Virus record (IMG/VR): IMGVR_UViG_3300005253_000102
Coordinates: 1 to 53,846 of that record
Origin: a virus
DNA: 53,846 bases
Reading direction: 5' to 3' (one strand)
The notes beneath the pieces are model-generated. The model was not told where the DNA came from. It made no database searches and was given only the letters and a program-made list of their open reading frames with translations. Both the position numbers and the translations under genes were made by a program. The first letter of the stretch is position 1. Every line of letters starts with the position of its first letter. Below are positions 6,918 to 37,674 of this stretch, piece after piece.

Positions 6918-7015
6918 ATGAAAATATTTGGACCTTTCTTTTTATGTGAAGGGTACTATAATATAACAAAGTAAATACACATAAGTGCATAACACGCCTT
7001 TAGATGGTGGAGACA

Positions 7016-7150
7016 ATGAGACTTCGATTTAATAAGAAAACAAGATTACATACGGTACAGCGAGGTACCAGTATGGGATCGTGTAGTTATCGAGTCTTGT
7101 GGCCCGTCTCTTTACCGTCACCAACACCCCTCGATAATATTATACGATAA
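7016..7150 (+). CDS. Possible 44-aa basic peptide
   Basis: Short frame starting MRLRFNKKTRLHTVQR, preceded by GGTGGAG at a suitable distance and downstream of a TATAAT (6957-6962). It ends just before the structured segment at 7159-7208. No family recognised. It could instead be untranslated leader of the tRNA operon. Confidence 0.35.
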   Translation: MRLRFNKKTRLHTVQRGTSMGSCSYRVLWPVSLPSPTPLDNIIR

Positions 7151-7158
7151 ACTTTCTG

Positions 7159-7208
7159 CGGGACAGAAACTAAGAGTTCCGGCTCTTCAACGGTTTTCAC
7201 TTGTCCCG
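7159..7208 (+). ncRNA. Structured RNA element upstream of the tRNA array
   Basis: CGGGACA (7159-7165) pairs perfectly with TGTCCCG (7202-7208), enclosing a second hairpin AAGAG-ttccgg-CTCTT (7172-7187). The closed two-stem element sits about 40 bases before the first tRNA. It may be a processing signal or small RNA. There is no T-run, so it is not an intrinsic terminator. Confidence 0.4.
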
Positions 7209-7250
7209 TGTGAGGTGAGGTGAGCGTATGCGTGTTGATTTTGAAGATTT

Positions 7251-7325
7251 GGCGGGTGGCAGGTCTGGGTACCTAATGGGTCTCATAAGCCTATTATTTG
7301 CAGGGTTCGATTCCCTGACCCGCTA
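7251..7325 (+). tRNA. tRNA-Met (CAT)
   Basis: Seven-pair acceptor stem (GGCGGGT with ACCCGCT, one G-T), T-arm CAGGG-TTCGATT-CCCTG, and anticodon loop CTCATAA giving CAT. It could be elongator Met or, if lysidine-modified, an Ile reading AUA; a separate Ile(TAT) tRNA is present. No encoded CCA. Confidence 0.8.
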
Positions 7326-7333
7326 TTAAATAC

Positions 7334-7409
7334 CTGGGTGTAGCTCAGTGGCCAGAGTTCTCGGCCTGGACCCGAGATGCCGAAGGTTCGACTCCTTCCA
7401 CCCAGACCA
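7334..7409 (+). tRNA. tRNA, probably Pro (TGG), with C33
   Basis: Acceptor CTGGGTG/CACCCAG, a normal D-arm and T-arm GAAGG-TTCGACT-CCTTC; encoded CCA at 7407-7409. The 5-bp anticodon stem CTCGG/CCGAG encloses loop CCTGGAC, putting TGG at 34-36 but C instead of the near-universal U at position 33. Confidence 0.7.
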
Positions 7410-7415
7410 TTTTAT

Positions 7416-7489
7416 AGCCCGGTGATGGAATTGGTATACATGCTGGTTTCAAAAGCCAGATTTTGAGAGTTCGAATCTCTCCTGCGCCA
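7416..7489 (+). tRNA. tRNA-Leu (CAA), imperfect acceptor stem
   Basis: Anticodon loop TTCAAAA gives CAA. The body aligns base by base with the Leu(TAA) gene at 7669, including an unusually short variable loop for Leu. The acceptor stem has two mismatches (A-C and C-C) out of seven. T-arm GAGAG-TTCGAAT-CTCTC is intact. It may be decaying. Confidence 0.65.
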
Positions 7490-7501
7490 TGTATAAAATA
7501 T

Positions 7502-7576
7502 GGGTGGCAATGTTCCAAGGCGGCGACAAGGTCTCCAAAACCTCGTGGCTAGGTTCGATTCCTAGGCTGCTCGCCA
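7502..7576 (+). tRNA. tRNA-Trp (CCA)
   Basis: Anticodon loop CTCCAAA gives CCA. Acceptor GGGTGGC/GCTGCTC has several G-T pairs. T-arm CTAGG-TTCGATT-CCTAG. Encoded CCA end at 7574-7576. Confidence 0.75.
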
Positions 7577-7583
7577 AAAATTA

Positions 7584-7662
7584 GGAGCGGTAGTGTAAGT
7601 GTGCATCGCCGGGGTTAAACCCGGAGGACTAGAGTATTCCAGCAACTTTAGTCGCTCCGCCA
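7584..7662 (+). tRNA. Atypical tRNA-like gene, isotype undetermined
   Basis: Perfect acceptor stem GGAGCGG/TCGCTCC (one G-T) and encoded CCA, 76 bases to the discriminator. The anticodon stem CCGGG/CCCGG closes a 6-base loop GTTAAA rather than 7. The T-arm lacks TTCRA: CTAGAGT/ACTTTAG forms a 7-bp stem with a 9-base loop (7629-7651). Anticodon could be read as TAA or GTT. Confidence 0.5.
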
Positions 7663-7668
7663 AAATTT

Positions 7669-7743
7669 GGGCCTGTGGTGGAACTGGCATACACAATCGG
7701 TTTAAGCCCGATTATTTTGAAGGTTCGAATCCTTCCAGGCCTA
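7669..7743 (+). tRNA. tRNA-Leu (TAA)
   Basis: Acceptor GGGCCTG/CAGGCCT, anticodon loop TTTAAGC giving TAA, T-arm GAAGG-TTCGAAT-CCTTC. The variable loop is only six bases, although Leu tRNAs normally have a long one. Paralogous to the 7416 gene. Confidence 0.75.
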
Positions 7744-7750
7744 TGTATAT

Positions 7751-7825
7751 GCCTCTGTAGTCCAATGGATAGGGCACTCGGCTACGAACCGAGCAATATA
7801 GGTTCGACTCCTATCAGAGGTACCA
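7751..7825 (+). tRNA. tRNA-Arg (ACG)
   Basis: Acceptor GCCTCTG/CAGAGGT, anticodon stem CTCGG/CCGAG, loop CTACGAA giving ACG, T-arm ATAGG-TTCGACT-CCTAT, encoded CCA. A clean cloverleaf. An A at position 34 implies inosine made by the host TadA. Confidence 0.85.
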
Positions 7826-7831
7826 AATAAC

Positions 7832-7903
7832 TGGGCAGTAACTCAGTGGTAGAGGACCTGTCTTATATACAGGTAGTCGTTGGTTCGATCCCAACCTGCC
7901 CAA
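7832..7903 (+). tRNA. tRNA-Ile (TAT)
   Basis: Acceptor TGGGCAG/CTGCCCA, anticodon loop CTTATAT giving TAT, T-arm GTTGG-TTCGATC-CCAAC. It would read AUA directly, a useful supplement for an A+T-rich phage. Confidence 0.8.
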
Positions 7904-7912
7904 TTAAATTAT

Positions 7913-8001
7913 GGAGGGTCGCAAGGCTGGCGTGCTTATCGGTCCTGAAAACCGTGATGGGTTAATAGCCTGTGTGGGTTCGATCCCTACACCCTCCGCC
8001 A
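7913..8001 (+). tRNA. tRNA-Ser (TGA), with C33
   Basis: Class II length with an extra variable arm; perfect acceptor GGAGGGT/ACCCTCC and encoded CCA. The anticodon loop CCTGAAA gives TGA, again with C instead of U at position 33. Confidence 0.75.
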
Positions 8002-8042
8002 AAATGCGCAACGCAAAATAGGTACATTTTTCGTTGAAAAAA

Positions 8043-8070
8043 TGAAGAAAAAACCGGGTATTTTTCTTCA
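8043..8070 (+). terminator. Hairpin, probable bidirectional terminator
   Basis: TGAAGAAAAA and TTTTTCTTCA form a perfect 10-bp stem around ACCGGGTA. It lies after tRNA-Ser and just before a -10 box at 8081, so it probably separates two tRNA transcription units. Confidence 0.5.
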
Positions 8071-8080
8071 AAAAATTCTG

Positions 8081-8086
8081 TATAGT
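8081..8086 (+). promoter_or_regulatory. -10 box (TATAGT) before the second tRNA group
   Basis: Context TCTGTATAGTAATATG resembles the TGTATAAT boxes elsewhere in the window. The ATG that follows is immediately closed by TAA, so no leaderless gene is formed. A 16-codon basic frame at 8130-8180 (MRKRKLKRCRKPYEGP) overlaps the first tRNA and is probably not a gene. Confidence 0.35.
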
Positions 8087-8170
8087 AATATGTAACCGTT
8101 AAGGTTATAAAGAAATAGGGTAACATCAAATGCGAAAACGAAAACTAAAGAGATGCAGGAAGCCTTACGA

Positions 8171-8243
8171 GGGTCCCTAGTCTAATTGGAAAGGCACCGG
8201 TCTTCTAAACCGGTAAAATCTGAGTTCGAGTCTCAGGGACCTA
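8171..8243 (+). tRNA. tRNA-Arg (TCT)
   Basis: Anticodon stem CCGGT/ACCGG with loop CTTCTAA giving TCT. Acceptor GGGTCCC/GGGACCT pairs fully only if the T-stem is four pairs (TGAG/CTCA). TTCGAGT loop present. Reads AGA, common in A+T-rich genes. Confidence 0.75.
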
Positions 8244-8247
8244 TAAT

Positions 8248-8319
8248 GGGCCGCTGGCGCAATGGTAGCGCAGTGGACTTTTAATCCATTGGTTCCGAGT
8301 TCGACTCTCGGGCGGCCTA
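8248..8319 (+). tRNA. tRNA-Lys (TTT)
   Basis: Acceptor GGGCCGC/GCGGCCT, anticodon loop CTTTTAA giving TTT, T-arm CCGAG-TTCGACT-CTCGG. All stems are well paired. Confidence 0.85.
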
Positions 8320-8329
8320 TAAAAATTAC

Positions 8330-8406
8330 GGACCTCTAGCTCCAATGGTTAGAGCATCGGCCTGTTAAGCCGAAGTGTCTCGGTTCAAATCCGAGGGGGT
8401 CCTCCA
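8330..8406 (+). tRNA. tRNA-Asn (GTT)
   Basis: Acceptor GGACCTC/GGGGTCC, anticodon stem TCGGC/GCCGA with loop CTGTTAA giving GTT, T-arm CTCGG-TTCAAAT-CCGAG, encoded CCA. Confidence 0.88.
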
Positions 8407-8414
8407 AAATATGC

Positions 8415-8490
8415 TGGGATGTAGTTCAGTTGGTAGAACGCTTGACTCTGAATCAAGAGGCCGAAAGTTCAAATCTTTCCATCCCGGCCA
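8415..8490 (+). tRNA. tRNA-Gln (CTG)
   Basis: Acceptor TGGGATG/CATCCCG, anticodon stem CTTGA/TCAAG with loop CTCTGAA giving CTG, T-arm GAAAG-TTCAAAT-CTTTC, encoded CCA. The T1-G72 end pair fits tRNA-Gln. Confidence 0.82.
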
Positions 8491-8496
8491 AATTAT

Positions 8497-8571
8497 GCCG
8501 GTGTAGCTCACCTGGTAGAGCGGCGGTCTTGTAAACCGCTGAAGAGGGTTCAAGTCCTTTCACCGGCTCCA
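8497..8571 (+). tRNA. tRNA-Thr (TGT)
   Basis: Acceptor GCCGGTG/CACCGGC, anticodon stem GCGGT/ACCGC with loop CTTGTAA giving TGT, encoded CCA. Last tRNA of the main array; the promoter of the 8614 gene starts seven bases later. Confidence 0.88.
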
Positions 8572-8577
8572 AAATAG

Positions 8578-8608
8578 TTGCACTTTATATGAATATTGAA
8601 TGTATAAT
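8578..8608 (+). promoter_or_regulatory. Promoter for leaderless gene 8614
   Basis: TTGCAC (8578-8583), 19-base spacer, TATAAT (8603-8608), then only five bases to the ATG at 8614. A start of transcription at or next to the ATG would leave no room for an SD, and none is present. Confidence 0.55.
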
Positions 8609-8613
8609 GATAT

Positions 8614-10024
<1,411 letters not shown>

Positions 10025-10048
10025 TTGGCTCTGTAGCACCTCCAAATG

Positions 10049-10249
10049 ATGACAAGAAAAGAAAGAAAAGTACAGAAAGCACTCGGGACGTGGTCACCAA
10101 AATTAGAAGACTATTATAAGTCTTTTGAGTTTTGGGTAGTGTACGGTGACTATGGAAGAAACTATGGAGTTAGGGTATTTCACGTTTGGATTTGGAAGCT
10201 ACTGATTGTATATAGGCAGGGTTTTGAGATTGCGTGGAACCCAGAATAA
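10049..10249 (+). CDS. Small ALGT-motif protein, 66 aa
   Basis: Starts MTRKERKVQKALGT (a second ATG lies one codon upstream), so the motif is almost at the N-terminus. The remainder is rich in Trp, Tyr and Phe with a hydrophobic stretch FHVWIWKLLIVY that could contact membrane or protein. No SD and no -10 box just upstream; it may be expressed with gmd. Unknown function. Confidence 0.5.
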   Translation: MTRKERKVQKALGTWSPKLEDYYKSFEFWVVYGDYGRNYGVRVFHVWIWKLLIVYRQGFEIAWNPE

Positions 10250-10251
10250 AT

Positions 10252-10325
10252 GCGGGTGTGATGTAGTGGTAGCATGTCAGTCTTCCAAACTGAGCGCGAG
10301 GGTCCAATCCCCTCCACCCGCTCCA
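10252..10325 (+). tRNA. tRNA-Gly (TCC)
   Basis: Acceptor GCGGGTG/CACCCGC, anticodon stem TCAGT/ACTGA with loop CTTCCAA giving TCC, T-arm GAGGG-TCCAATC-CCCTC (TCC in place of TTC), encoded CCA. Isolated from the main array, between two ALGT-motif genes. Confidence 0.85.
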
Positions 10326-10330
10326 ATTTT

Positions 10331-10361
10331 TTGTACCTTTATGAAAACTTAAGTGTATAAT
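10331..10361 (+). promoter_or_regulatory. Promoter for leaderless gene 10366
   Basis: TTGTAC (10331-10336), 19-base spacer, TATAAT (10356-10361) and four bases to the ATG at 10366. The spacer length is the same as at 8578-8608. The context AAGTGTATAATTAGTATG is repeated exactly before gene 11726. Confidence 0.55.
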
Positions 10362-10365
10362 TAGT

Positions 10366-10581
10366 ATGATAAAGATACTTGTAATATCTTATAGGTGGAT
10401 TATACAACGATGTATATTTTGTGGCAGTAAGAAAAGATCGTATCATCCATTTGGTACTTTACATTGTTGTCCTACCGACGCAGCAGATATTCAAAGCAAT
10501 GGAGTTAATGGATGTTCTTTGTCGCGAAAGTTTATAACATGTAAAGAAGCAAAAATACAACGGGCATTAGGACTTTTATGA
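10366..10581 (+). CDS. Zinc-ribbon ALGT-motif protein A, 71 aa
   Basis: Paralogue of the next gene. Both share RWIIQRCIFCGSKKRSY / RWLTRRCVFCGSEKRPY-type N-termini, a CPTD and a C-SLS element (likely one zinc site), and end with the ALGT motif: KEAKIQRALGLL here, at the very C-terminus. No SD; promoter immediately upstream. Its TGA overlaps the next ATG. Function unknown; the motif as a C-terminal tag is the clearest feature. Confidence 0.6.
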   Translation: MIKILVISYRWIIQRCIFCGSKKRSYHPFGTLHCCPTDAADIQSNGVNGCSLSRKFITCKEAKIQRALGLL

Positions 10582-10799
10582 AGATACTCACAATGACATG
10601 GAGATGGCTTACAAGAAGGTGTGTATTCTGTGGTAGTGAGAAAAGACCTTATAGTGATAAACACTTTAATATTGAATATTATTGTCCTACTGATCTGAGA
10701 TTTTTACAGGACGTCGAAAACATATGTTGTAGTCTGTCGAACACGTTTATATCACATAAAGAGGTAAAAGTACAAAGGGCTTTAGGACTTTTTTTTTAG
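10578..10799 (+). CDS. Zinc-ribbon ALGT-motif protein B, 73 aa
   Basis: Tandem duplicate of the preceding gene, translationally coupled through ATGA. CVFC near residues 15-18, CPTDLR and CCSLS supply further ligands. It ends KEVKVQRALGLFF. The two copies differ at many positions while keeping the cysteines and the terminal motif, so the duplication is old and the motif is under selection. Confidence 0.6.
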   Translation: MKILTMTWRWLTRRCVFCGSEKRPYSDKHFNIEYYCPTDLRFLQDVENICCSLSNTFISHKEVKVQRALGLFF

Positions 10800-10817
10800 G
10801 TCCAAAAGGATTTTAAG

Positions 10818-11426
10818 ATGTTCTTCATTGGTGATGTTCATGGGCAGTATGCAGCTTACTTTGACTGGCTCAACAAATTCAAATCTCAAAAATCGATTCA
10901 GGTAGGTGACTTTGGGCTAGGTTTTGGTAATGCTACTCCCGCACCTTGGGACATGATTCACCGGTTTATCCGTGGCAATCACGATGACCCTGCTGCGTGT
11001 AATGCACATTCTAATCATCTTGGAGATTACGGTGTTACAGAGGATGGCATATTTTTTGTCGCGGGTGGTTACTCTATTGATGTTGACTGGAGAAAGTCTG
11101 TACAACATGAATATCCCTACCCTATTTGGTGGGAGGATGAAGAAATTGCTGAATCAGAATTTGAAAAGATTCTGGAACTCTATAAAGCTACAAAACCAAA
11201 AATTGTAGTTTCACATGATTGTCCTTCAGAGATCAGGGATACTCTACTTGAAGGTGGTCATCCACATCGCAATCGGACTAGTGATGGATTACTGTCCGCA
11301 ATGTTTAAAGCACACCAACCTGAGCTTTGGGTATTTGGACACTATCATGAGTCAATTGATATGAAAGTCAATGATACCCGCTTTAAAGGTCTTGCTGAAC
11401 TTGAAGTATTTGAATATGTTATATAA
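10818..11426 (+). CDS. Calcineurin-like metallophosphoesterase
   Basis: All motifs of the two-metal phosphoesterase fold are present: GDVHG at 5-9, GDFG at 30-33, RGNHDD at 52-57, a later SHDCPSE, and GHYHE near the C-terminus. 202 residues is typical of single-domain phage and bacterial enzymes. Substrate (protein phosphate, nucleotide or RNA end) cannot be predicted. ATG follows an AAAAGGA site. No signal peptide, so cytoplasmic. Confidence 0.88.
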   Translation: MFFIGDVHGQYAAYFDWLNKFKSQKSIQVGDFGLGFGNATPAPWDMIHRFIRGNHDDPAACNAHSNHLGDYGVTEDGIFFVAGGYSIDVDWRKSVQHEYPYPIWWEDEEIAESEFEKILELYKATKPKIVVSHDCPSEIRDTLLEGGHPHRNRTSDGLLSAMFKAHQPELWVFGHYHESIDMKVNDTRFKGLAELEVFEYVI

Positions 11427-19947: not shown

Positions 19948-22059
19948 ATGGGATATATACTCCCCGGCGGGCGTTTTAGTAGATACGGTGATTCTCTTAT
20001 TAATGCAGATACTCAATCTGCTATGGTTACTGTACCGCAAGTTAAACCTATCTCAGGCAGATCACTTACGGGCGCCCAAGGGCGTATTGCAGCTGCAAGA
20101 AGTGTGACCGCTACAGATATTAGTAGAACTGCTCCTACATTTAATGATCCTCGATACACATTTACCACATTAAGTATTCCTACAGATTTAAGAACATTAA
20201 ATGGTCTTTACAGATTTTTTGATGATACAGATCCATTAGTAGGCAATGCTATTAGGCTTCATTGTGAATTCCCACTTTCCCGAGTATCGCTGAAAGAAGT
20301 AGGTGATCCGGTTATTCAAAGACATTATGAAGATATGTGGGAACGTATCCAAATGGATAGCCTTCTTTTTAACATAGGCCTAGAATATTGGCGTATTGGT
20401 AATGTGTTCCCATATGGTGCATGGAATGTTGACGATATGATGTGGGAACAATTTGTGATATTGAACCCGGATTATGTTACGGTTGAAGGAACTTATCTTA
20501 ATCAACGGCCGTTTATTAAACTTCAGCCAGATGAACATTTGAAAAAGATTGTGACTACGGGTCAGCCGAAGTTTTTGTATGATCAACTCCCACCTGAAAT
20601 TGTCAAGTATGTTCGTATGGGTCAGGAGATACCTCTTTCTCCTCAAAATGTTTTTCATATTGCACATAATAAATCGCCGTATGAAACGTTGGGAAGATCT
20701 GTAATTAAGCGTATTCTTAAAAGTTTAATATATGAAGATCGTATGTCAATGGCAAATTTTGCAATTGCTACTCGACAAACAATTCCAATCACGGTAGTTA
20801 AAATTGGTGACCCTAATTCTGGTTGGGTTCCGAATGATGAAGAACTTGAAGAAGTTCGAGAATTATTATCTGCTCGTGAAGTTGATCCAAACTTTACAAT
20901 TATTTATCACTGGGGCATTGATATTCAATTTTATGGTGCGTCAGGTAAAATTTGGAATCTTACAAATGAATTCAATCGAATAATGAAATGGAAGATGTTA
21001 GGCTTAGGCATATCAGAAGCCATTTTAACTGGCGGAAGTTCGTATGCCACAGCATATGCGCAATTAGAAGTACTTAGACAGCGATACCTACATTTTCAAC
21101 AGACTATGCAAACGTTTGTGTATCGCGGCGTTTTTGAGCCAGTTGCGTATGCTTGCGGATTTTATAAAACAGAAGATGTTGTTGCGGGTAGATATTATAG
21201 CGGGAAAAAATTTGGTAATCCTACTGATGCTGATATGCCTGAAACCGATATATTGTCCAAACACGCTGCTAATTTCAATAACGAGGATAATGAAGATTAT
21301 GTAGCTCAGTTGAAAGCGAAGCACGCTGCTAATGTGTCTGGGAAAGCACTTGTGTATCCTAAACTTGATTGGGATCTGCTTTCATTATCGAATGATGTAC
21401 AATATCGTAACTTTTTAATGAATTTTGATAGGCTGTTTCCAGGACAGCGTAAAGTTTCTGACTCAACTTTTTACCAGGCTGCGAAAATTGATAAAGATGC
21501 TGAACGTGAAAAATTGGCAAAAGAACATAAAGAAAATCTTCAGGATCAATTTGATAATGCAAAGATTGACCAGGAATATAGGAAGAAGTTTGCGGACGAA
21601 GGATTACCTTTCCCTGCAGATAAAGTTGCACAGCAACAAGGAGGAGGAGCTGGTGGCGTCGGCGGAGCAGGCGGTGCTCCGGGAACATCCCCTGGTCCGG
21701 GAGGAATGGCACTTCAACCAGGACAACCTGCACCAATGGGCGGTACGGGTGGTGGTAATTTAATGGGTTCTCCAGCAACACCTAATGCTCCTGTAGGCCA
21801 AGGTAATTTTTCTGGTGATGGTGGAGGTAAAACTCCTGGAGTTCCACGAAGTCCAGAAGCTAGTAGAATGCATTCATTAGATCTTCAAAGATCCTTAACG
21901 AGATCATCGATAGAACTTGAACAAGAGCTTGCGGAAGAAGCTACACAATTGCGTAAAGCTAATGCAGATGCAGGTATTGATGTAGGAAAAATTGATGAAG
22001 AGATTAAATCTAACCTTAAATCTTACGAAAATTCGCAAGATTCAACAGATTCTGAGTAG
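19948..22059 (+). CDS. Portal protein
   Basis: 703 residues. The N-terminal 500 residues show portal features: FDDTDPLVGNAIRLH near 90-104, a long alpha/beta stretch with VFHIAHNKSPYETLGRSVI, and the helical stem region. The C-terminal 190 residues are a charged helix then a Gly/Pro-rich low-complexity tail and a final coiled-coil-like segment. It forms the dodecameric ring at the unique vertex for DNA entry and exit. Followed by sigma-like genes rather than directly by the protease, which is unusual. Confidence 0.85.
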   Translation: MGYILPGGRFSRYGDSLINADTQSAMVTVPQVKPISGRSLTGAQGRIAAARSVTATDISRTAPTFNDPRYTFTTLSIPTDLRTLNGLYRFFDDTDPLVGNAIRLHCEFPLSRVSLKEVGDPVIQRHYEDMWERIQMDSLLFNIGLEYWRIGNVFPYGAWNVDDMMWEQFVILNPDYVTVEGTYLNQRPFIKLQPDEHLKKIVTTGQPKFLYDQLPPEIVKYVRMGQEIPLSPQNVFHIAHNKSPYETLGRSVIKRILKSLIYEDRMSMANFAIATRQTIPITVVKIGDPNSGWVPNDEELEEVRELLSAREVDPNFTIIYHWGIDIQFYGASGKIWNLTNEFNRIMKWKMLGLGISEAILTGGSSYATAYAQLEVLRQRYLHFQQTMQTFVYRGVFEPVAYACGFYKTEDVVAGRYYSGKKFGNPTDADMPETDILSKHAANFNNEDNEDYVAQLKAKHAANVSGKALVYPKLDWDLLSLSNDVQYRNFLMNFDRLFPGQRKVSDSTFYQAAKIDKDAEREKLAKEHKENLQDQFDNAKIDQEYRKKFADEGLPFPADKVAQQQGGGAGGVGGAGGAPGTSPGPGGMALQPGQPAPMGGTGGGNLMGSPATPNAPVGQGNFSGDGGGKTPGVPRSPEASRMHSLDLQRSLTRSSIELEQELAEEATQLRKANADAGIDVGKIDEEIKSNLKSYENSQDSTDSE

Positions 22060-23023
22060 TAGCGCCGTTCTAAATTTCCGTAAGTACGGGGAAGATGATG
22101 TGGTGACTCCAGAATTGTTGGATAAATATAGGCAGGGTGATGCTAACGCTGCTAATGTTATTGCGAAAGAGATTCTTAAAAATATTCATGGCGCAATGAA
22201 ACATTTAGGTATCATGGAAGGTGCACCTCCGCAAGAGTGGAAAGATTTTAGAGATAAAACTGCCCTGCGTATATGGGAATATTCTGTACCACGATACGAT
22301 CCTACTCAAACAAAATTTAATACATTTGTATTCAACATGGTTGGCAATATGTGGAAGAATTGGCTGAAACAAAAATCTACTGCACCTTTAGATGTGGGAC
22401 CTAGTATTGACGAGCCTGAGCAGGAGATGGCTATAGAAGATCCTTTTGCAGCAGGTTTTAAATCTGAAGTGGAAGCACAAATTATTGAATCTGCTCTTTT
22501 AGAAAATATTAAAAACCCCCGACACCGTGAAATTTTGGAATTGTGGTTAGCTGAAGATCCTGGTGAAAATGTATTAACTAAGGCAGCTAATGTCGCAGAG
22601 ATGTACAATAAGGCTCACCCTGAAAAGCCTATTGATGCCGACCGGATGTATAGGTTAGTGATATATGAAATCTATCCGTTAGTACTCGACGCGTTACCAG
22701 AGGCTGCTAGCGGTGTTGGGTATATTAGAAATCCTAAAACGGGTCCGGGAGATATAAAATGGATACGGAAGCCTAAGCCTGAAGAGGTTACGCCTTCAGA
22801 TGAAACTGTTTTCGAAGAAGAAGAGTATACACTCTCGGAAGAAAGGGTTGCACCAACATATAGAATTGATCCTCAAACTGGTGAACGCACTTTGATAAGT
22901 TTAGATATGAGAAGAAAAATAACTGCAGTACAAGAGGTATGGTGTCACACTTTGTTGACATTTTTAAGTATAGAACGGTATGGCAAATTTAGACGAACTG
23001 TTAAAAGCAGTACAAAAAGATAA
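21995..23023 (+). CDS. Sigma-like protein (degenerate region 2), 342 aa
   Basis: Residues about 80-125 (WKDFRDKTALRIWEY, YDPTQTKFNTFVFN, MWKNWLKQK) follow the pattern of sigma-70 region 2 (W..f..ydp.kG.kF.tya). The rest is acidic and unassigned. The start is uncertain: ATG 21995 overlaps the portal end by 65 bases with AGGA upstream; GTGs near 22098 are alternatives. Overlaps the clear sigma factor downstream, so the two may work as a pair. Confidence 0.6.
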   Translation: MKRLNLTLNLTKIRKIQQILSSSAVLNFRKYGEDDVVTPELLDKYRQGDANAANVIAKEILKNIHGAMKHLGIMEGAPPQEWKDFRDKTALRIWEYSVPRYDPTQTKFNTFVFNMVGNMWKNWLKQKSTAPLDVGPSIDEPEQEMAIEDPFAAGFKSEVEAQIIESALLENIKNPRHREILELWLAEDPGENVLTKAANVAEMYNKAHPEKPIDADRMYRLVIYEIYPLVLDALPEAASGVGYIRNPKTGPGDIKWIRKPKPEEVTPSDETVFEEEEYTLSEERVAPTYRIDPQTGERTLISLDMRRKITAVQEVWCHTLLTFLSIERYGKFRRTVKSSTKR

Positions 23024-23771
23024 GAAGAAAACTTTATCTAAAGAAGAAGAAGTAAAGTTAGGGACGATTATTCAATCTCTCACATCTACAGAAACTTCTA
23101 AACAAAAAGCTATTGAGAAACTTGTTCTCAAAAATATTTTCTTAGTGCTTAAAATCTGCCATAGATATAAACGAAAAGAATTTGAATTTGAAGATTTGGT
23201 AAGCTATGGAATTTTAGGGCTTTTCACCGCGGCCCGAAAATTTGATCCCACACGTAAAAATCGATTCGCATCTTACGCACGTCATTGGATTAAAGAAGCA
23301 ATAATGAAGGCCATTCGTGAATACAGTGGCCTACCAAAGATTCCGGTATACCTGGTTAAAAATTTATGGTTGGTCGCTCGTATTTTGTCCAAAGATGATA
23401 CAATAACAGATATGGCACTGGCAAAAAGTGCAGGTATTTCTGAAAAAGATGCTGCATACTTACGTACCTTAATGTTTAAGTTTATTCAATTTGATGTATC
23501 GTATGTGGTAAAGTTCCCAGTAACTCCTGAAGACATGTATGCTTTGAAAGAACGTGATGAACTAATTTACAAAGCTTTGAGTACGCTATTAACTAAAGAT
23601 GAATTTACTGTTTTGGCGCATACCCATGAGTTATGCGGGTATACAAAAATGACGTTTGCGAAGATTGAAGATGAATTAGAAATAAAAAATCCCCGTAGAC
23701 TTAAAGTAGAAGCATTGAAAAAGTTGAGTAATAATCCAATTATGCAAGAGTTGTATAAAGAAGGATGGTAA
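22980..23771 (+). CDS. RNA polymerase sigma-70-family factor
   Basis: 263 residues. Region 2 is clear at about 48-112: [51 protein letters not shown]. Region 3/4-like helices follow ([14 protein letters not shown]; a C-terminal [19 protein letters not shown] resembling 4.2). It would direct host core polymerase to phage promoters, probably late ones, given its place beside the portal and a TATAAATA element downstream (inference). Confidence 0.85.
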
Positions 23772-30019: not shown

Positions 30020-33000
30020 GTGTCTTTACAAAAGTACGCATCTCTTAAGCTCGCATCAGTAATAACTACTGAACAAGAATTTGATGAAATTATTGAAAGG
30101 TCTACTGTCATAGCCGGGGGAGATCATTCAGTTCAGAAAGTAGTTAGGTTCAATCCTGATTTTGTATATGCGAGGTTTAAAGCAATTGGATGTCTTTGTG
30201 TAGATGGTCCTAATGCCAATGCTGATGGTTTTCCTTATGATCAATTCTTAGATAGTCGTGCAGGTTATGGGTATCAATCATTTATAGGAAAGCATGCTTT
30301 TGTTGAACACAGCAGTGATAATATCAATAATTCAATTGGTAACCTCCACAGTGCTTATCTAAATCGTTTCAATACTTCCAAATTTGGTAATAAAGAGTGG
30401 CAGATTCTTAACGATGATGAACGTCATTATACTTTAGCTAATAGAGCGTCTCATGAAGATGGCAGTGTTGAAGTACTTATGGCGATCGATCGAAAAGTGT
30501 CTCCAAGAATTGCTCGAATGCTTGAGACAGATTCTCCAGTAGGGTGTTCTATGGGCACCAATATTGATTATAGTGAATGTACTGTTTGTGGTAATCGTGC
30601 GTATATTGAAGAGAATTATTGTCCTCATATTAAATTCAGTAAGGGCCAAAATGTTCTTATTCCTGCCAGTCAAATTTCTGACCTCATTAAAAAAGGTGCT
30701 ATTAAAAAAGAATGGTTACCCTTTATACTGCATCGTGCACAAGACGTTAAAGCGGTCGCAAGTAATGCACGCAGAATGGTTTATGCTAAGGCGTTTGAAG
30801 TTAACTATGGCCTTAGCTTTTTTGAATTATCAGTTGTTGCCAATCCTGCATTCCACCGTGGATATAAACTAGAAAAAATTGCAAGCACTTCTAAGAAATC
30901 CTTTCAACAGTTGATGCCCCTTATTTATTCGGCAGAAAGTCAACCCATTGAGGTTGTTCTTAGTGTTACAGATGGATTTTATAGCAGTGTGTTAGAGGCC
31001 TTTGCAAATCAAATAGGTCAACCTTTAGATCAATGGACGGACGAAGAAAGACTTTTATTTGAACGTAATGGTGAAATTGCTAAAAGTGCTTTACAGTCTG
31101 GAAATGTACATGAAGTACTAACAAAGAAAATTAATGCCCCGTATTTAGTTAAAGAAGGGATTGAACTTATTCCTTCTGATAATGCAGGATTTTATCAAAT
31201 TGCTAATCCTGATGAATTGTTAACGCGTACATTTGCAGGAACAAGATTACGCTCTGTTTCAGGGATAGTAGGTACGCCTGAAGAAAATTATTATGGTTGT
31301 GTGATTTGCCAAGGGGTATATAATCGTAATTTACATACGAAGACTGCTGCGTATGAATGGAACACTTTTAATAAGTTTTCTATTTGTCCCAGTTGTGAAC
31401 AAATTAGTAGATTATCAGAAAATAATGAAGGAGAGGTATACGCTATGTCAAAAGACCATACCGGTAAAACAGCTGCGGAAGGTACTAACCTTCCTACTAC
31501 ATCTGAATTTACTGGGGATAAAGAGGTAACCATTGGCAATCCTCGAGAAAAAGAAACTGAATTATATAAGGGCTGGGCTGCCAAAGGTAGTGGCCAGATT
31601 GAAAAGGAGAAGGAATATAGGCCTATGGGAACAATTTTTATCGACGCAATTGTTGCGAGAAAGGATCTTAATGATCGTTCTGCACGAATTGCGGAACTTT
31701 CGAAATCCGCGGGTATCCTACTTGGCCGCACTAAACTTGCGTTAGATGCTCCTGAAGATTTCCTCGCTGAAATGGGCGGTGGAAAACCTCCGGAACTTGA
31801 CGTCCCAAAAGGTGTGGAAGGTGTGGAAGGTATGGAAGGTCCTGCAGGTCCTGAAGATGATATGGGTATTGCAGTTGCAATAGATATAGGATCTGGGGCA
31901 GATTTACGCACTACTCTAGAAAATACTAAAGCTGATCTTGAGTTGATTCTAGGTGATTTAGAACAAGCTAAGTCGATGGTGGGCACTAGCGAAGGAGAAG
32001 CAATTGATGCTCTCGCCAATAAGCTTCGTTGGGGTAAGCGCCAGGCAATTGTCGCACAAAAAGTTGCAGCTGAAGCAGATTCATTAATTGAAGATGCTGT
32101 ATCTGCTGTTGAAGATGCGATGGCTAAACTTCAAACCGCTTGTGAATTTCTTTATGCTGAGGAAGGAAGGCCAGCCAAAGAAAAAGAGGCTAATAACGAA
32201 AAATCTGACTCTGACTCTGACTCTGACTCTGACTCTGAGAAATCTGATGGTGATTCCAAAGGTGGATTTCCATTTGATAAAAAAGATGGTAAAAAAGATG
32301 GTAAAAAAGATGATAACAATAATAACAAAGAAGTCGATTCTGAAGGAGGAGACGATATGTCCAAAGAAGCACGCCTTGAGCTGAATTCAAGAAATATTCA
32401 GCTTCTGCGAGACCTTAAGGACGTTGTTACAGGTTCTTCGTCACTCGTAAAAGTCGCAGCTACCGAAGAAGAAGTGGTAACTGATGGCGAAGCCGAGGTT
32501 AAAACCGAGGTTGTAGACGAGAAGGACACTGAAAAGGAAGCTTCTGGGACGAAAGCTACTAAGTCAGCAGACGTTAAAGAAGCTGCAGCTCAACCACCTA
32601 CTGGTGCCCGTGATCCTGGTGATTATGGTGATCCCGGAGCGATTGAATCTCATGAGATGAAACGCTGGTGGCAGGATATGTATCCTGAATTTGAGAAGAT
32701 GAAATCCGAAGAACAACGTCTGGAACTCAACATTCCTGAAGGTAAAGTAGAATTGTTAACCGGCACGTTGGGTCAGCGCGAAGAAAGTGATCCAGAAGTT
32801 GGTAAGCAGACCGACGCTCCTGCAATTTTTGCAAAGCGTTTTGCAAACACCTGGGAGCCTAAGAAATCTTTTTATGGAGTTCTGAAGGTTGCCGAGGATG
32901 GTGCAGTTGAAGCTTTCACTACTAACTTTAGTGATGTCACCGACGATGACGCTGGTAAAGATCAGTTTGATGCGTTCACATCAGACGATTACATGAGTGA

Positions 33001-33868
33001 AATCGTTGACACTGTTAAAGAACATGGTATTGAAGCTACTCGTAAGCTCATGAATGGTAAGACTGCTCAGTTGGAAGGTATTACGCCTGGTAAGACTGAA
33101 AAGGTTAATCCGTTGTATGACACTGACGAGGAGAAGAAAAACTCTAACACACCGCGTGATGGCGAACGCCCTGATCCGAAAGATGGTCATGGTAAAGCTG
33201 TTTCGAATGATAAAGCATACTATGCTAAAGCTTTCGGTGACGAAGGGTACGCTTCTGATCTGGTAACAGCTCAGAAGAAAGTTGCTACGCTAGAATTGAA
33301 GCTCGTTGATGCTGAAATGGATCGGAAATCTGGTCTTATCGCTAAACACGCCCTTCATCTGGCACGTGTTGCTGCTTCCCGTGGTATTATTCCGTTTGAC
33401 TTAGCTAATGTTCAGGCTCAAGCAATGGAATACATTAAGTATGACGAGAACAGTATCAATGCAGTTACTGCTCATCTCGAGAAACTGCCGGTTGTGACTC
33501 AGAGAGCTCTTGAAGCTTATCAGATTCCGGAAGCAGAAGACATGAGTTACGGTGTAATCCATAATTCCTTGGATGCAGTGGACAAGATCCGTATGGAACA
33601 CACTGATGCAGAAACCGTAGCACCCGATGGAATTCAAACTGCCGTCGAAAATAACGCAAAGCTGTCTGATGCAGACAAGGCGCCGCGTATTTCGAAGCAA
33701 GCTTCTGAAACTGTTGTGCCTCAAATGCACGCTGATTCAGCTGCTGAAGCAGGTGGTCTTCCTGATGTTACTAAGTTCTTTACAAGTACGATTGAAAACC
33801 GGTTAAGGAAGGCAGGCAAACTTGACGAATGTATCGCCAAGGGTTGGCTGAAGTCTAACCGTAGGTAA
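30020..33868 (+). CDS. Prohead protease fused to scaffold, with nested internal starts
   Basis: 1282 residues from GTG 30020. Residues 1-290 fit a prohead serine protease: VEHSSDNINNSIG with His97, CSMGT with Ser177, a zinc-like CTVC at 187-190, and ELSVVANPAF at 269-278. The middle is charged with Gly/Glu repeats and an (SD)n run. The last 500 residues are scaffold-like with coiled-coil (VATLELKLVDAEM). Two in-frame ATGs have strong ribosome sites: 31445 (GAAGGAGAGG) and 32357 (AAGGAGGAG), both starting MSK, so separate middle and scaffold products are likely. Confidence 0.78.
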   Translation: MSLQKYASLKLASVITTEQEFDEIIERSTVIAGGDHSVQKVVRFNPDFVYARFKAIGCLCVDGPNANADGFPYDQFLDSRAGYGYQSFIGKHAFVEHSSDNINNSIGNLHSAYLNRFNTSKFGNKEWQILNDDERHYTLANRASHEDGSVEVLMAIDRKVSPRIARMLETDSPVGCSMGTNIDYSECTVCGNRAYIEENYCPHIKFSKGQNVLIPASQISDLIKKGAIKKEWLPFILHRAQDVKAVASNARRMVYAKAFEVNYGLSFFELSVVANPAFHRGYKLEKIASTSKKSFQQLMPLIYSAESQPIEVVLSVTDGFYSSVLEAFANQIGQPLDQWTDEERLLFERNGEIAKSALQSGNVHEVLTKKINAPYLVKEGIELIPSDNAGFYQIANPDELLTRTFAGTRLRSVSGIVGTPEENYYGCVICQGVYNRNLHTKTAAYEWNTFNKFSICPSCEQISRLSENNEGEVYAMSKDHTGKTAAEGTNLPTTSEFTGDKEVTIGNPREKETELYKGWAAKGSGQIEKEKEYRPMGTIFIDAIVARKDLNDRSARIAELSKSAGILLGRTKLALDAPEDFLAEMGGGKPPELDVPKGVEGVEGMEGPAGPEDDMGIAVAIDIGSGADLRTTLENTKADLELILGDLEQAKSMVGTSEGEAIDALANKLRWGKRQAIVAQKVAAEADSLIEDAVSAVEDAMAKLQTACEFLYAEEGRPAKEKEANNEKSDSDSDSDSDSEKSDGDSKGGFPFDKKDGKKDGKKDDNNNNKEVDSEGGDDMSKEARLELNSRNIQLLRDLKDVVTGSSSLVKVAATEEEVVTDGEAEVKTEVVDEKDTEKEASGTKATKSADVKEAAAQPPTGARDPGDYGDPGAIESHEMKRWWQDMYPEFEKMKSEEQRLELNIPEGKVELLTGTLGQREESDPEVGKQTDAPAIFAKRFANTWEPKKSFYGVLKVAEDGAVEAFTTNFSDVTDDDAGKDQFDAFTSDDYMSEIVDTVKEHGIEATRKLMNGKTAQLEGITPGKTEKVNPLYDTDEEKKNSNTPRDGERPDPKDGHGKAVSNDKAYYAKAFGDEGYASDLVTAQKKVATLELKLVDAEMDRKSGLIAKHALHLARVAASRGIIPFDLANVQAQAMEYIKYDENSINAVTAHLEKLPVVTQRALEAYQIPEAEDMSYGVIHNSLDAVDKIRMEHTDAETVAPDGIQTAVENNAKLSDADKAPRISKQASETVVPQMHADSAAEAGGLPDVTKFFTSTIENRLRKAGKLDECIAKGWLKSNRR
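32343..32359 (+). promoter_or_regulatory. Internal in-frame ribosome site and start (scaffold)
   Basis: AAGGAGGAG followed by ATG at 32357, codon 780 of the 1282-residue frame. It would give a 503-residue scaffold starting MSKEARLELNSRN. A similar site (GAAGGAGAGG, ATG 31445, codon 476) lies upstream. Confidence 0.6.
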
Positions 33869-33903: not shown

Positions 33904-34464
33904 ATGGCGAATAAGCTCGTAGTTCGCGGGTTCTTCGGTATTAAGCAGACATTCAACGTAGCGTCTGCTGCAATCGGAGGTGACCCGTACAACAGTAACC
34001 AATTACCGACTGGTACGTGGTATGCAGGAAATCTTTTCGTGATTTCCACGGCATCCACTGGTATTGGTAATGGTGTCGATGCATATGTTTCGATAGCCAG
34101 TACATCTGGTAGTGCCTGTATTGGTGTTGCTATGGAAAATTCTGCTGATGCATCAACAGCTGTTGCTGGTATGTCTCAGCCGAGTGGATCTAAAGTGACT
34201 ATTTTACACGGCCACAGTGAGTTTGAAATGACAGCCGCATCTGCAACTGAGGGCCGCCGTATTTACGAACAGGGTTCAACCCTGGGTAATATGGAATCGG
34301 CTTCTCTCATGGACTTGGTTTATGTTAGTACAAACGGCAAGTTCACTAATTTGGTTAGTCACGCCGCTTCTGGCGTAGATGCACCACCGGTACCGCTTGG
34401 TTATGTTACTAAAATTCCAGGGGCCGGAAACTCTTACACATTAGGCGTTGTCCTTTTTGGATAA
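33904..34464 (+). CDS. Putative capsid decoration protein, 186 aa
   Basis: Preceded by AAGGAGGTTTAACT, among the strongest ribosome sites in the window. Small beta-rich, Gly/Ser/Thr/Ala-rich protein directly before the major capsid gene, the usual place of head decoration proteins. Codon use is more G+C-rich than in its neighbours, matching high expression. Confidence 0.65.
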   Translation: MANKLVVRGFFGIKQTFNVASAAIGGDPYNSNQLPTGTWYAGNLFVISTASTGIGNGVDAYVSIASTSGSACIGVAMENSADASTAVAGMSQPSGSKVTILHGHSEFEMTAASATEGRRIYEQGSTLGNMESASLMDLVYVSTNGKFTNLVSHAASGVDAPPVPLGYVTKIPGAGNSYTLGVVLFG

Positions 34465-34483: not shown

Positions 34484-35455
34484 ATGCGTAAGCAAGCTAG
34501 TTCATATCCGCCGGGGTTCCAGAAAAGTGCTCCTAATGCGGGTTTTGGCGTAGAGAAGAAAGCTGATTTCTCTACAACTGATCCTTACACTCAGTATACA
34601 GATGCTAGTGAAGCCGATCAGATTTTCACGCTTCTACAAACAGAAGCAGGTCGTCAGGCACTTGGTGCCCAGATGGCGATTCCGATTCGTACCCAGCTTG
34701 ATTACCAGGGCATGGCACGTAGATTTTTCGAGATCGACGTACTTGGTCAGGGTCAGATCGCTCGTTACGATCGTGACATTAACGCTTTTGCGGCTACAGT
34801 CACTAAGAAAGGTGAGTCTGTACAGTTCATCGTTGAAGGCGAATATGTCGAGCCGGTAACGTGGGAAATTTTCGCTCCCGCAGCCATCCGGTTGAAAGAA
34901 ATCCAGCAGCGTCGTTTCAATGTTCTCGATCGTATGCAGGAGCGGATTCGTATCGCTGTGCAGATCGAAGAGGACACGCAGTTCTTAGCACTGACTGAAA
35001 CTACTGTTGCTGCTAACACCGCTAACAACCCTATCGTGACAAGTACGGGTGGTTGTTCCAAAGACTTTATGAATAAGCTCTCTGCTGAAATCATGAAGTG
35101 GGATTTGCCCGCATATGCGTATTTGATGAATTTCAAGTCGTATTCTCACCTTCGTTCGTGGAAGCGTAACGATGTTGATCCTGTGACCCAGCGTGAAATC
35201 TGGCAGACAGGCCTTGTTGGATCCTTGTGGGGAATCGATCTTATCGTTTCTCGTTTGGTTCCGAATAACTGGGTCTACTGTTACTCAGAGCCGCGCTTCA
35301 CGGGTGTGTTGCCTATTCGTACTGATCTTATCCTTCTGCCGGATGACACTCCGAAAGAAGCTTTAATCGGCTATGTCGGTTACGAAGAGCTCGGTATGCT
35401 GTTGATTAATGCGAATTCTGTCGCAAGAGGCACATTCTCTGGATTCCCGTCATAA
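34484..35455 (+). CDS. Major capsid protein (HK97 fold, inferred)
   Basis: 323 residues. N-terminal extension, then an E-loop-like region (ARYDRDINAFAATVTKKGES), a long spine helix (RLKEIQQRRFNVLDRMQERIR, written in part) and A-domain strands ending LLINANSVARGTFSG. Assigned from sequence character and from its place after protease/scaffold and decoration genes. Strong ribosome site TAGGAGGT. Highly biased codon use. Confidence 0.85.
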   Translation: MRKQASSYPPGFQKSAPNAGFGVEKKADFSTTDPYTQYTDASEADQIFTLLQTEAGRQALGAQMAIPIRTQLDYQGMARRFFEIDVLGQGQIARYDRDINAFAATVTKKGESVQFIVEGEYVEPVTWEIFAPAAIRLKEIQQRRFNVLDRMQERIRIAVQIEEDTQFLALTETTVAANTANNPIVTSTGGCSKDFMNKLSAEIMKWDLPAYAYLMNFKSYSHLRSWKRNDVDPVTQREIWQTGLVGSLWGIDLIVSRLVPNNWVYCYSEPRFTGVLPIRTDLILLPDDTPKEALIGYVGYEELGMLLINANSVARGTFSGFPS

Positions 35456-36999: not shown

Positions 37000-37674
37000 G
37001 TGGATAGATATTATATTTATATGTATTTAGATTTTGATAATGTTCCTTTTTATATTGGAAAAGGATCAGATACTCGATATAAAGTACGTAATCATTTAGG
37101 AAATAATCATAGTAATGGTCTCCTAAAGAATAAAATCTGTAAGGTTGGTGCAAAGAATGTTAGAATTCACTTTCTTCATAAAGACCTTACAGAGAAAGAA
37201 GCTTTTCGTCAAGAAAGATATTGGATTAGCTACTATGGTCGTAGAGATTTAGGAATAGGTACTCTCTGTAATCTAACAGACGGTGGAGAAGGGACATCTG
37301 GACGGATACATTCTGTGGAGGCTCGGCGTAAAATTGGTGAGTGGTCTAGAAATTTTGTAAGAACAGAGGAACACTGCGCCAAAATAAGTACTGCCCAAAA
37401 AGATAAACCGCGTCCTTGGACTGCTGGAAAGAATCATGGGATGTATGGTAAACATCATACTGACGAAGCCAAGTGTAAAATGGGCGAAAGTCGTAGAGGG
37501 AAAGCTGTTGGAGAGGTTCATCATAATGCTAAATTGACAGAAGAGGATGTCCTTAAAATACGTGAACTGTTTATTTTACCTAATTATGACCGAAGAACCT
37601 CCGCAAAACTATTTGGAGTTAGTCCAACGGTAATTACTAATATAGTTAAACGGAAAACTTGGATACATATTTAG
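37000..37674 (+). CDS. GIY-YIG homing endonuclease
   Basis: 224 residues from GTG. The GIY-YIG core is at 6-20 (IYMYL then FYIG), followed by an Arg at 26 and the catalytic-region Glu in QERYWI near 71. C-terminally, NUMOD3-like repeats (RIHSVEARRKIG, GKHHTDEAKCKMG) and a HTH-like end (TSAKLFGVSPTVITNI) should bind DNA. It is inserted between late structural genes with no intron visible, so a free-standing mobile gene. Confidence 0.88.
   Translation: MDRYYIYMYLDFDNVPFYIGKGSDTRYKVRNHLGNNHSNGLLKNKICKVGAKNVRIHFLHKDLTEKEAFRQERYWISYYGRRDLGIGTLCNLTDGGEGTSGRIHSVEARRKIGEWSRNFVRTEEHCAKISTAQKDKPRPWTAGKNHGMYGKHHTDEAKCKMGESRRGKAVGEVHHNAKLTEEDVLKIRELFILPNYDRRTSAKLFGVSPTVITNIVKRKTWIHI

Follow-up and report, generated by a model that had tools for sequence, protein, structure and literature searches.

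The window, as we call the whole 53,846-nucleotide stretch of an uncultured phage analysed here (IMG/VR virus record IMGVR_UViG_3300005253_000102, positions 1 to 53,846), carries on its plus strand a single open frame at 30020-33868 that starts with GTG and runs for 1282 codons without an internal stop. The frame comprises a protease module (codons 1-475, 30020-31444), an acidic middle module (codons 476-779, 31445-32356; pI 4.5) that ends with a variable charged linker, and an acidic C-terminal module of 503 residues (codons 780-1282, 32357-33868) that is most likely the scaffold; the last two are each represented by an alignment of 9 members. Two places downstream lies the major capsid gene (34484-35455, plus strand), whose product matches PHROG 2522 (E 5e-53) and is 38% identical to gp27 of Bacillus phage G. 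The gene in between (33904-34464, plus strand) gave no match in family searches and takes, in the gene order, the place that the decoration gene has in phage G. At each internal module border stands an in-frame ATG, at 31445 (codon 476) and at 32357 (codon 780), and both open with MSK; a preliminary description of the locus had pointed to these two codons, and coordinates and translation confirm them. Internal start 1 (31428-31447, plus strand) consists of AAGGAGAGG followed by ATG 31445, in the context AAGGAGAGGTATACGCT ATG TCA AAA, and internal start 2 (32341-32359, plus strand) of GAAGGAGGAG followed by ATG 32357, in the context GAAGGAGGAGACGAT ATG TCC AAA. Use of all three starts would yield co-terminal products of 1282, 807 and 503 residues (140.7, 87.5 and 55.2 kDa), predicted lengths that agree with the nested products of about 800 and 500 residues expected in that description. 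We consider it likely, from the sequence comparisons set out below, that three translation starts are used and that the frame thereby specifies three head-assembly proteins with identical C-terminal parts.

Both MSK starts are preceded by AAGGAG-type sites. Their pairing with the 16S tail is predicted at -9.4 kcal/mol for 31445 and -12.3 kcal/mol for 32357, compared with -5.6 kcal/mol at the GTG of the frame, -12.3 kcal/mol at gene 33904 and -11.6 kcal/mol at the capsid gene. Ranked by the strength of the Shine-Dalgarno sequence (SD) among the 317 internal in-frame ATG and GTG codons in window open reading frames of at least 140 codons, 32357 comes first. The pattern AAGGAG N4-12 ATG occurs 16 times in the window, both strands counted, against 4.3 expected in shuffles, and three of the 16 fall within the span of the frame: internal starts 1 and 2, and a third at 31992 with an out-of-frame ATG. 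Scans for promoters (11 found, 9.0 expected) and terminators (6 found, 3.4 expected) placed none at the two internal starts. The RNA near the starts is more open than the median of its frame at 17 of 20 sites, seldom to an extreme degree, and we do not use this as support. ATG 31832 was rejected as a start: it has a strong SD but is located within a Gly-Glu repeat.

As judged from these alignments, it is conservation across relatives that exceeds chance for the two starts. Searches of viral contigs recovered the locus in 13 distinct contigs in addition to the window, many of the loci found being repeats of one contig, and the genome contigs searched contained no relative. Ten of the 13 carry the fused frame (L001, L002, L006, L014, L003, L011, L009, L031, L032 and L051); L014 is truncated at the 5′ end and the other nine are complete. 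These frames diverge to about 40% identity, and each of the two sites keeps a start codon behind an SD in all 11 fused frames, the window counted. Site 1 has ATG in 11 of 11; site 2 has ATG in seven and GTG in four that form one clade (L009, L031, L032 and L051). Over the same 11 frames SD strength spans -7.3 to -13.2 at site 1 and -10.4 to -17.6 at site 2, and it increases in the order frame start, site 1, site 2 in nine of the ten complete frames, with L011 an exception by 0.2 kcal/mol. Within the window's clade, which has six complete frames, 11 alignment columns hold a start codon in every one of them, all ATG; by mean pairing codon 780 ranks first (-11.9) and codon 476 second (-10.4), the next column stands at -6.7, and the same two codons have the least conserved protein surroundings of the 11. 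When nine complete frames are aligned, six columns qualify and codon 780 has a mean of -13.8, codon 1 averages -5.6, and none of the remaining four internal columns is stronger than -4.6; site 1 is missing from this test because a variable insert after it in the L009 clade shifts the alignment. Within the L009 clade itself, a test of 12 columns was filtered for ATG and the GTG of site 2 therefore fell outside it; here site 1 (codon 508) came first, at -10.6, with the least conserved surroundings. For comparison, none of the seven conserved ATG columns of the capsid gene has a mean stronger than -5.4, and the portal gene, also taken as a control, had no usable column. Since the residues that encode the SD vary across the relatives and the SD persists, we read the selected feature as the SD and not the peptide. 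The two nested starts proposed in the preliminary description are retained in every fused frame and lie where the protein is least conserved. Codon 711 of the L009 clade, a conserved ATG that ranks second of the 12 (-9.6) where the surrounding protein is better conserved, may be a further start and is listed among the rejected candidates, as is codon 536 (MGTIFID), a conserved methionine but with a weaker SD (-6.7) and in well conserved protein.

The front of the frame had been taken for a protease, and homology supports this. The N-terminal module matches the head maturation protease family PHROG 18299 (E 1.4e-11) and PHROG 2774, the family to which the long frames of cluster C mycobacteriophages belong; hhalign also shows it to be homologous to phage G gp19 (99.8%). 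These profile comparisons point to a member of the phage G gp19-like PHROG 18299 protease family. The annotated phages that share the protease include phage G, cluster C mycobacteriophages, phages of Gordonia, Rhodococcus and Erwinia, and others. S177 and H97 are invariant in 10 aligned sequences, and we take the candidate catalytic residues to be Ser177 in GCSMG and His92 or His97 in GKHAFVEH. At a cut-off of E 0.1 the whole frame matched no Pfam family, those of the lambda C protease (presumably peptidase S49) and of the herpesvirus protease (assemblin) included, no NCBIfam entry, and no PDB sequence in any meaningful way; the middle module likewise matched no Pfam family. The last 503 residues most likely serve as the scaffold, as position and composition suggest, because no other candidate scaffold gene lies between the protease module and the capsid gene. 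AlphaFold models were of low confidence (pTM 0.38 for the protease and 0.24 for the scaffold, the latter mostly helical) and too poor for a fold search, which was therefore left out.

The modular layout of protease, middle protein and scaffold put forward earlier is mirrored in relatives that are differently divided. Three of them, L010, L052 and L054, encode the protease in a gene of its own, ahead of a single middle-scaffold frame (339 + 792, 326 + 1036 and 300 + 910 codons, respectively). The C-terminal part of the second frame is clearly homologous to the presumed scaffold part in L010 (hhalign, 98.8%) and likewise in L052 and L054 (HMMER, 1e-22 and 2e-33); between the middle module and the L010 second frame no homology was detected. 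Strong internal SD-ATGs occur in the second frame of L054 at codons 110 (-16.9) and 204 (-12.8) and in that of L052 at codon 118 (-12.3). Phage G shares with the window a homologous protease and capsid protein and the gene order up to the decoration and capsid genes, but what is one fused frame here is there three separate genes, gp19 (protease, 300 aa), gp20 (162 aa) and gp21 (486 aa). Its gp20 begins MSKK and ends in a charged tail, and its gp21 has a weak likeness to the scaffold part (HMMER E 0.0055; hhalign probability 4%). On balance we lean towards a three-tier nested assembly gene, in which the modules keep their own ribosome sites within one frame and supply protease, middle and scaffold forms with a common end in graded doses, and whose relatives display the one-frame, two-gene and three-gene states.

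In such a gene the weak site at 30020 would give a scarce full-length protease-middle-scaffold protein, the start at 31445 a middle-scaffold form, and the strongest site, at 32357, abundant scaffold. The shared scaffold end would draw the protease and middle forms into the growing prohead, with ribosome-site strength setting the ratios, few protease and many scaffold molecules per prohead. The middle product might, at a guess, be an internal core or portal-linked protein. Codon use is in part consistent with this dosage: measured as adaptation to the capsid and 33904-type genes in seven fused frames, the scaffold part scores higher than the protease part in the window (0.686 vs 0.584, p 0.001) and also in L003 (p 0.003), L009 (p 0.002) and L032 (p 0.021), and this more capsid-like codon use in four of seven frames counts for the three-product reading. 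After assembly, the protease would cleave the scaffold as well as the N-terminus of the capsid protein, possibly at the motif K-x-A-[ST]. Noted in the window, L051, L052, L054 and L010, this motif is enriched in protease-scaffold frames, with 6 occurrences vs 1.35 expected in the window frame (p 0.003) and 6 vs 1.33 expected in the L054 second frame. It also stands where the protease domain ends (LEKIAS) and at the start of the capsid protein (KQASSYPPG). In phage G, N-terminal sequencing showed a shortening of the capsid protein from 282 to 255 residues (PMC5646251), and we infer that gp19 is the protease responsible. The cut deduced from these lengths would follow VALA, which agrees with K-x-A-[ST] in alanine only.

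Several results weigh against three products. Strong ribosome sites had been claimed before both ATGs, and this holds for 32357; at 31445 the site is present but ranks sixth of 317, tied with ATG 31832, so that in the window sequence alone 31445 is not exceptional. Synonymous-codon shuffles of the window did not make SD strength significant (p 0.61 at codon 780 and p 0.16 at codon 476), and over seven fused frames the share of such shuffles that matched the SD was 14-63% for site 2 and 4-79% for site 1. This is because EGGD-x-M nearly encodes an SD by itself, and the signal resides in residue choice as much as in codon choice. The step in codon use is absent from three of the seven frames (L001, L002 and L006), no SD start was found at the scaffold position in L010, phage G gp20 has no detectable relation to the middle module, and no family or structure match supports a scaffold function for the C-terminal part. 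The evidence for the middle start is weaker than that for the scaffold start, and it is rather unlikely, yet conceivable, that 32357 alone is used, giving two products as in lambda C/Nu3 or Mu; ATG 31445 would then encode an ordinary methionine or be the relic of a former gene start. In 10 of 11 frames site 2 surpasses site 1 in strength, and the residue after the methionine of site 1 is more variable, including Val and Ile in the L009 clade. Nevertheless, ATG and SD are kept at site 1 in every fused frame exactly where protein identity is lowest, and in three relatives a real gene begins at that module border, which argues for a start there.

The non-significant shuffles at most sites, together with the enrichment of K-x-A-[ST], would also fit a single full-length protein that is cut by its protease into three pieces, the SD-like sequences being by-products of Glu-Gly-Gly-Asp residues. 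We regard this as improbable, because start codons at the correct spacing are conserved in 11 of 11 frames, the SD outlasts change of its encoding residues, and other conserved methionine columns have no SD. That both sites lie at module borders could instead suggest that the internal SDs slow the ribosome there for folding and start no translation, but slowing does not need a start codon at fixed spacing, and one is present in all 11 frames; this we hold to be very improbable indeed. Three translation starts thus remain our preferred explanation of the frame.

Lambda, Mu and herpesviruses have nested protease-scaffold genes, whose shorter products set the protease:scaffold ratio; Nu3 translation starts inside lambda C, and herpesvirus UL26/UL26.5 is a further protease-scaffold example. 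In lambda C/Nu3 and Mu I/Z, as proposed here, protease and scaffold share one frame upstream of the capsid gene and the scaffold arises from an internal start behind an SD, but they have one nested product where we predict two. The frame described here has in common with them an N-terminal maturation protease upstream of the capsid gene and a conserved internal in-frame SD start. The likeness to lambda C/Nu3 that had been proposed therefore applies to the working principle and goes no further, since no Pfam peptidase family matches the frame. Reportedly, Welch et al. 1991 (cited in PMC9732275) described four nested cytomegalovirus proteins. The cytomegalovirus UL80 family resembles our locus in its protease-scaffold fusion with shorter co-terminal in-frame products, which stem from separate transcripts there and, to judge from the sequence, from internal ribosome sites here; the Pfam search showed no sequence relation of that family to the frame, and no relevant PDB sequence was found. 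Lambda C and Nu3 are treated as the protease and scaffold of one initiator complex (PMC3224144). In gene 27 of the Mu-like Pseudomonas phage PaMx73, Val177 is reported as a putative start with an SD, its relative position matching that in Mu (PMC4378225).

The frames of PHROG 2774 (Alice gp90, Myrna gp97 and Stormageddon gp13 among them) are also long (852-1511 aa in six examined), have a homologous N-terminal protease, and in cluster C mycobacteriophages and Gordonia and Rhodococcus phages lie two places before the capsid gene, as here; they differ in that the remainder beyond the protease has no detectable homology. In six aligned actinophage frames, strong internal SD starts fell at no shared position outside conserved protein. 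Two frames of this kind, L020 6378-10013 (Myrna gp97) and L029 6354-9602 (Skog), are noted or named in public records as tape measure or LysM-like endolysin, and the protease match suggests that they are head-maturation genes. The open-access literature searched yielded no phage protease-scaffold frame with two internal starts. If our reading is correct, the two conserved internal ribosome sites, stronger toward the scaffold, would extend nested protease-scaffold genes to a three-protein dose series, and the middle product would be an unannotated head protein. Because gene callers give the longest frame only, long hypothetical frames upstream of capsid genes are worth checking for hidden starts.

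A related box is found near the N-termini of both the middle and scaffold modules in L054 (7866-10598), L052 (2488-5598), L031 and L051, and is nearly identical in L054. It is significant in each of these four (0/300 shuffles); L010 shows module similarity (1/300 shuffles), but not on the box. The box is not significant in the window (131/300 shuffles) or L003 (228/300), and the middle and scaffold profiles are unrelated by hhalign. From this pattern we recognise an internal duplication whose traces the window has lost to detection. In L031 (codons 529-572) and L051 (codons 526-573) the middle start is followed by a weak ChaB-like match that stays below the Pfam cut-off, and in L032 (3448-7704, counterpart 7001-11335) a stretch of ~60 residues, read by eye, apparently occurs twice, once per module; both point to domain shuffling inside the frame. 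The window's middle module contains three short tandem repeats with units of 9, 6 and 12 bases (31809-31840, 32204-32238 and 32278-32316), the latter two in the charged linker ahead of the scaffold start.

Elsewhere in the window, the portal gene (19948-22059) has an in-frame ATG at 21763 (codon 606) behind a strong SD-like stretch (-12.2), likewise present in L008 and L011; in its Gly-rich context (GGTGGGNL|MG) this stretch is probably a by-product of glycine codons. A phage-encoded sigma-70 region 2 protein (22980-23771) is located between the portal and head genes, and a GIY-YIG/NUMOD3 homing endonuclease-like gene (37000-37674), its GIY-YIG match just under the Pfam cut-off, lies amid the structural genes.

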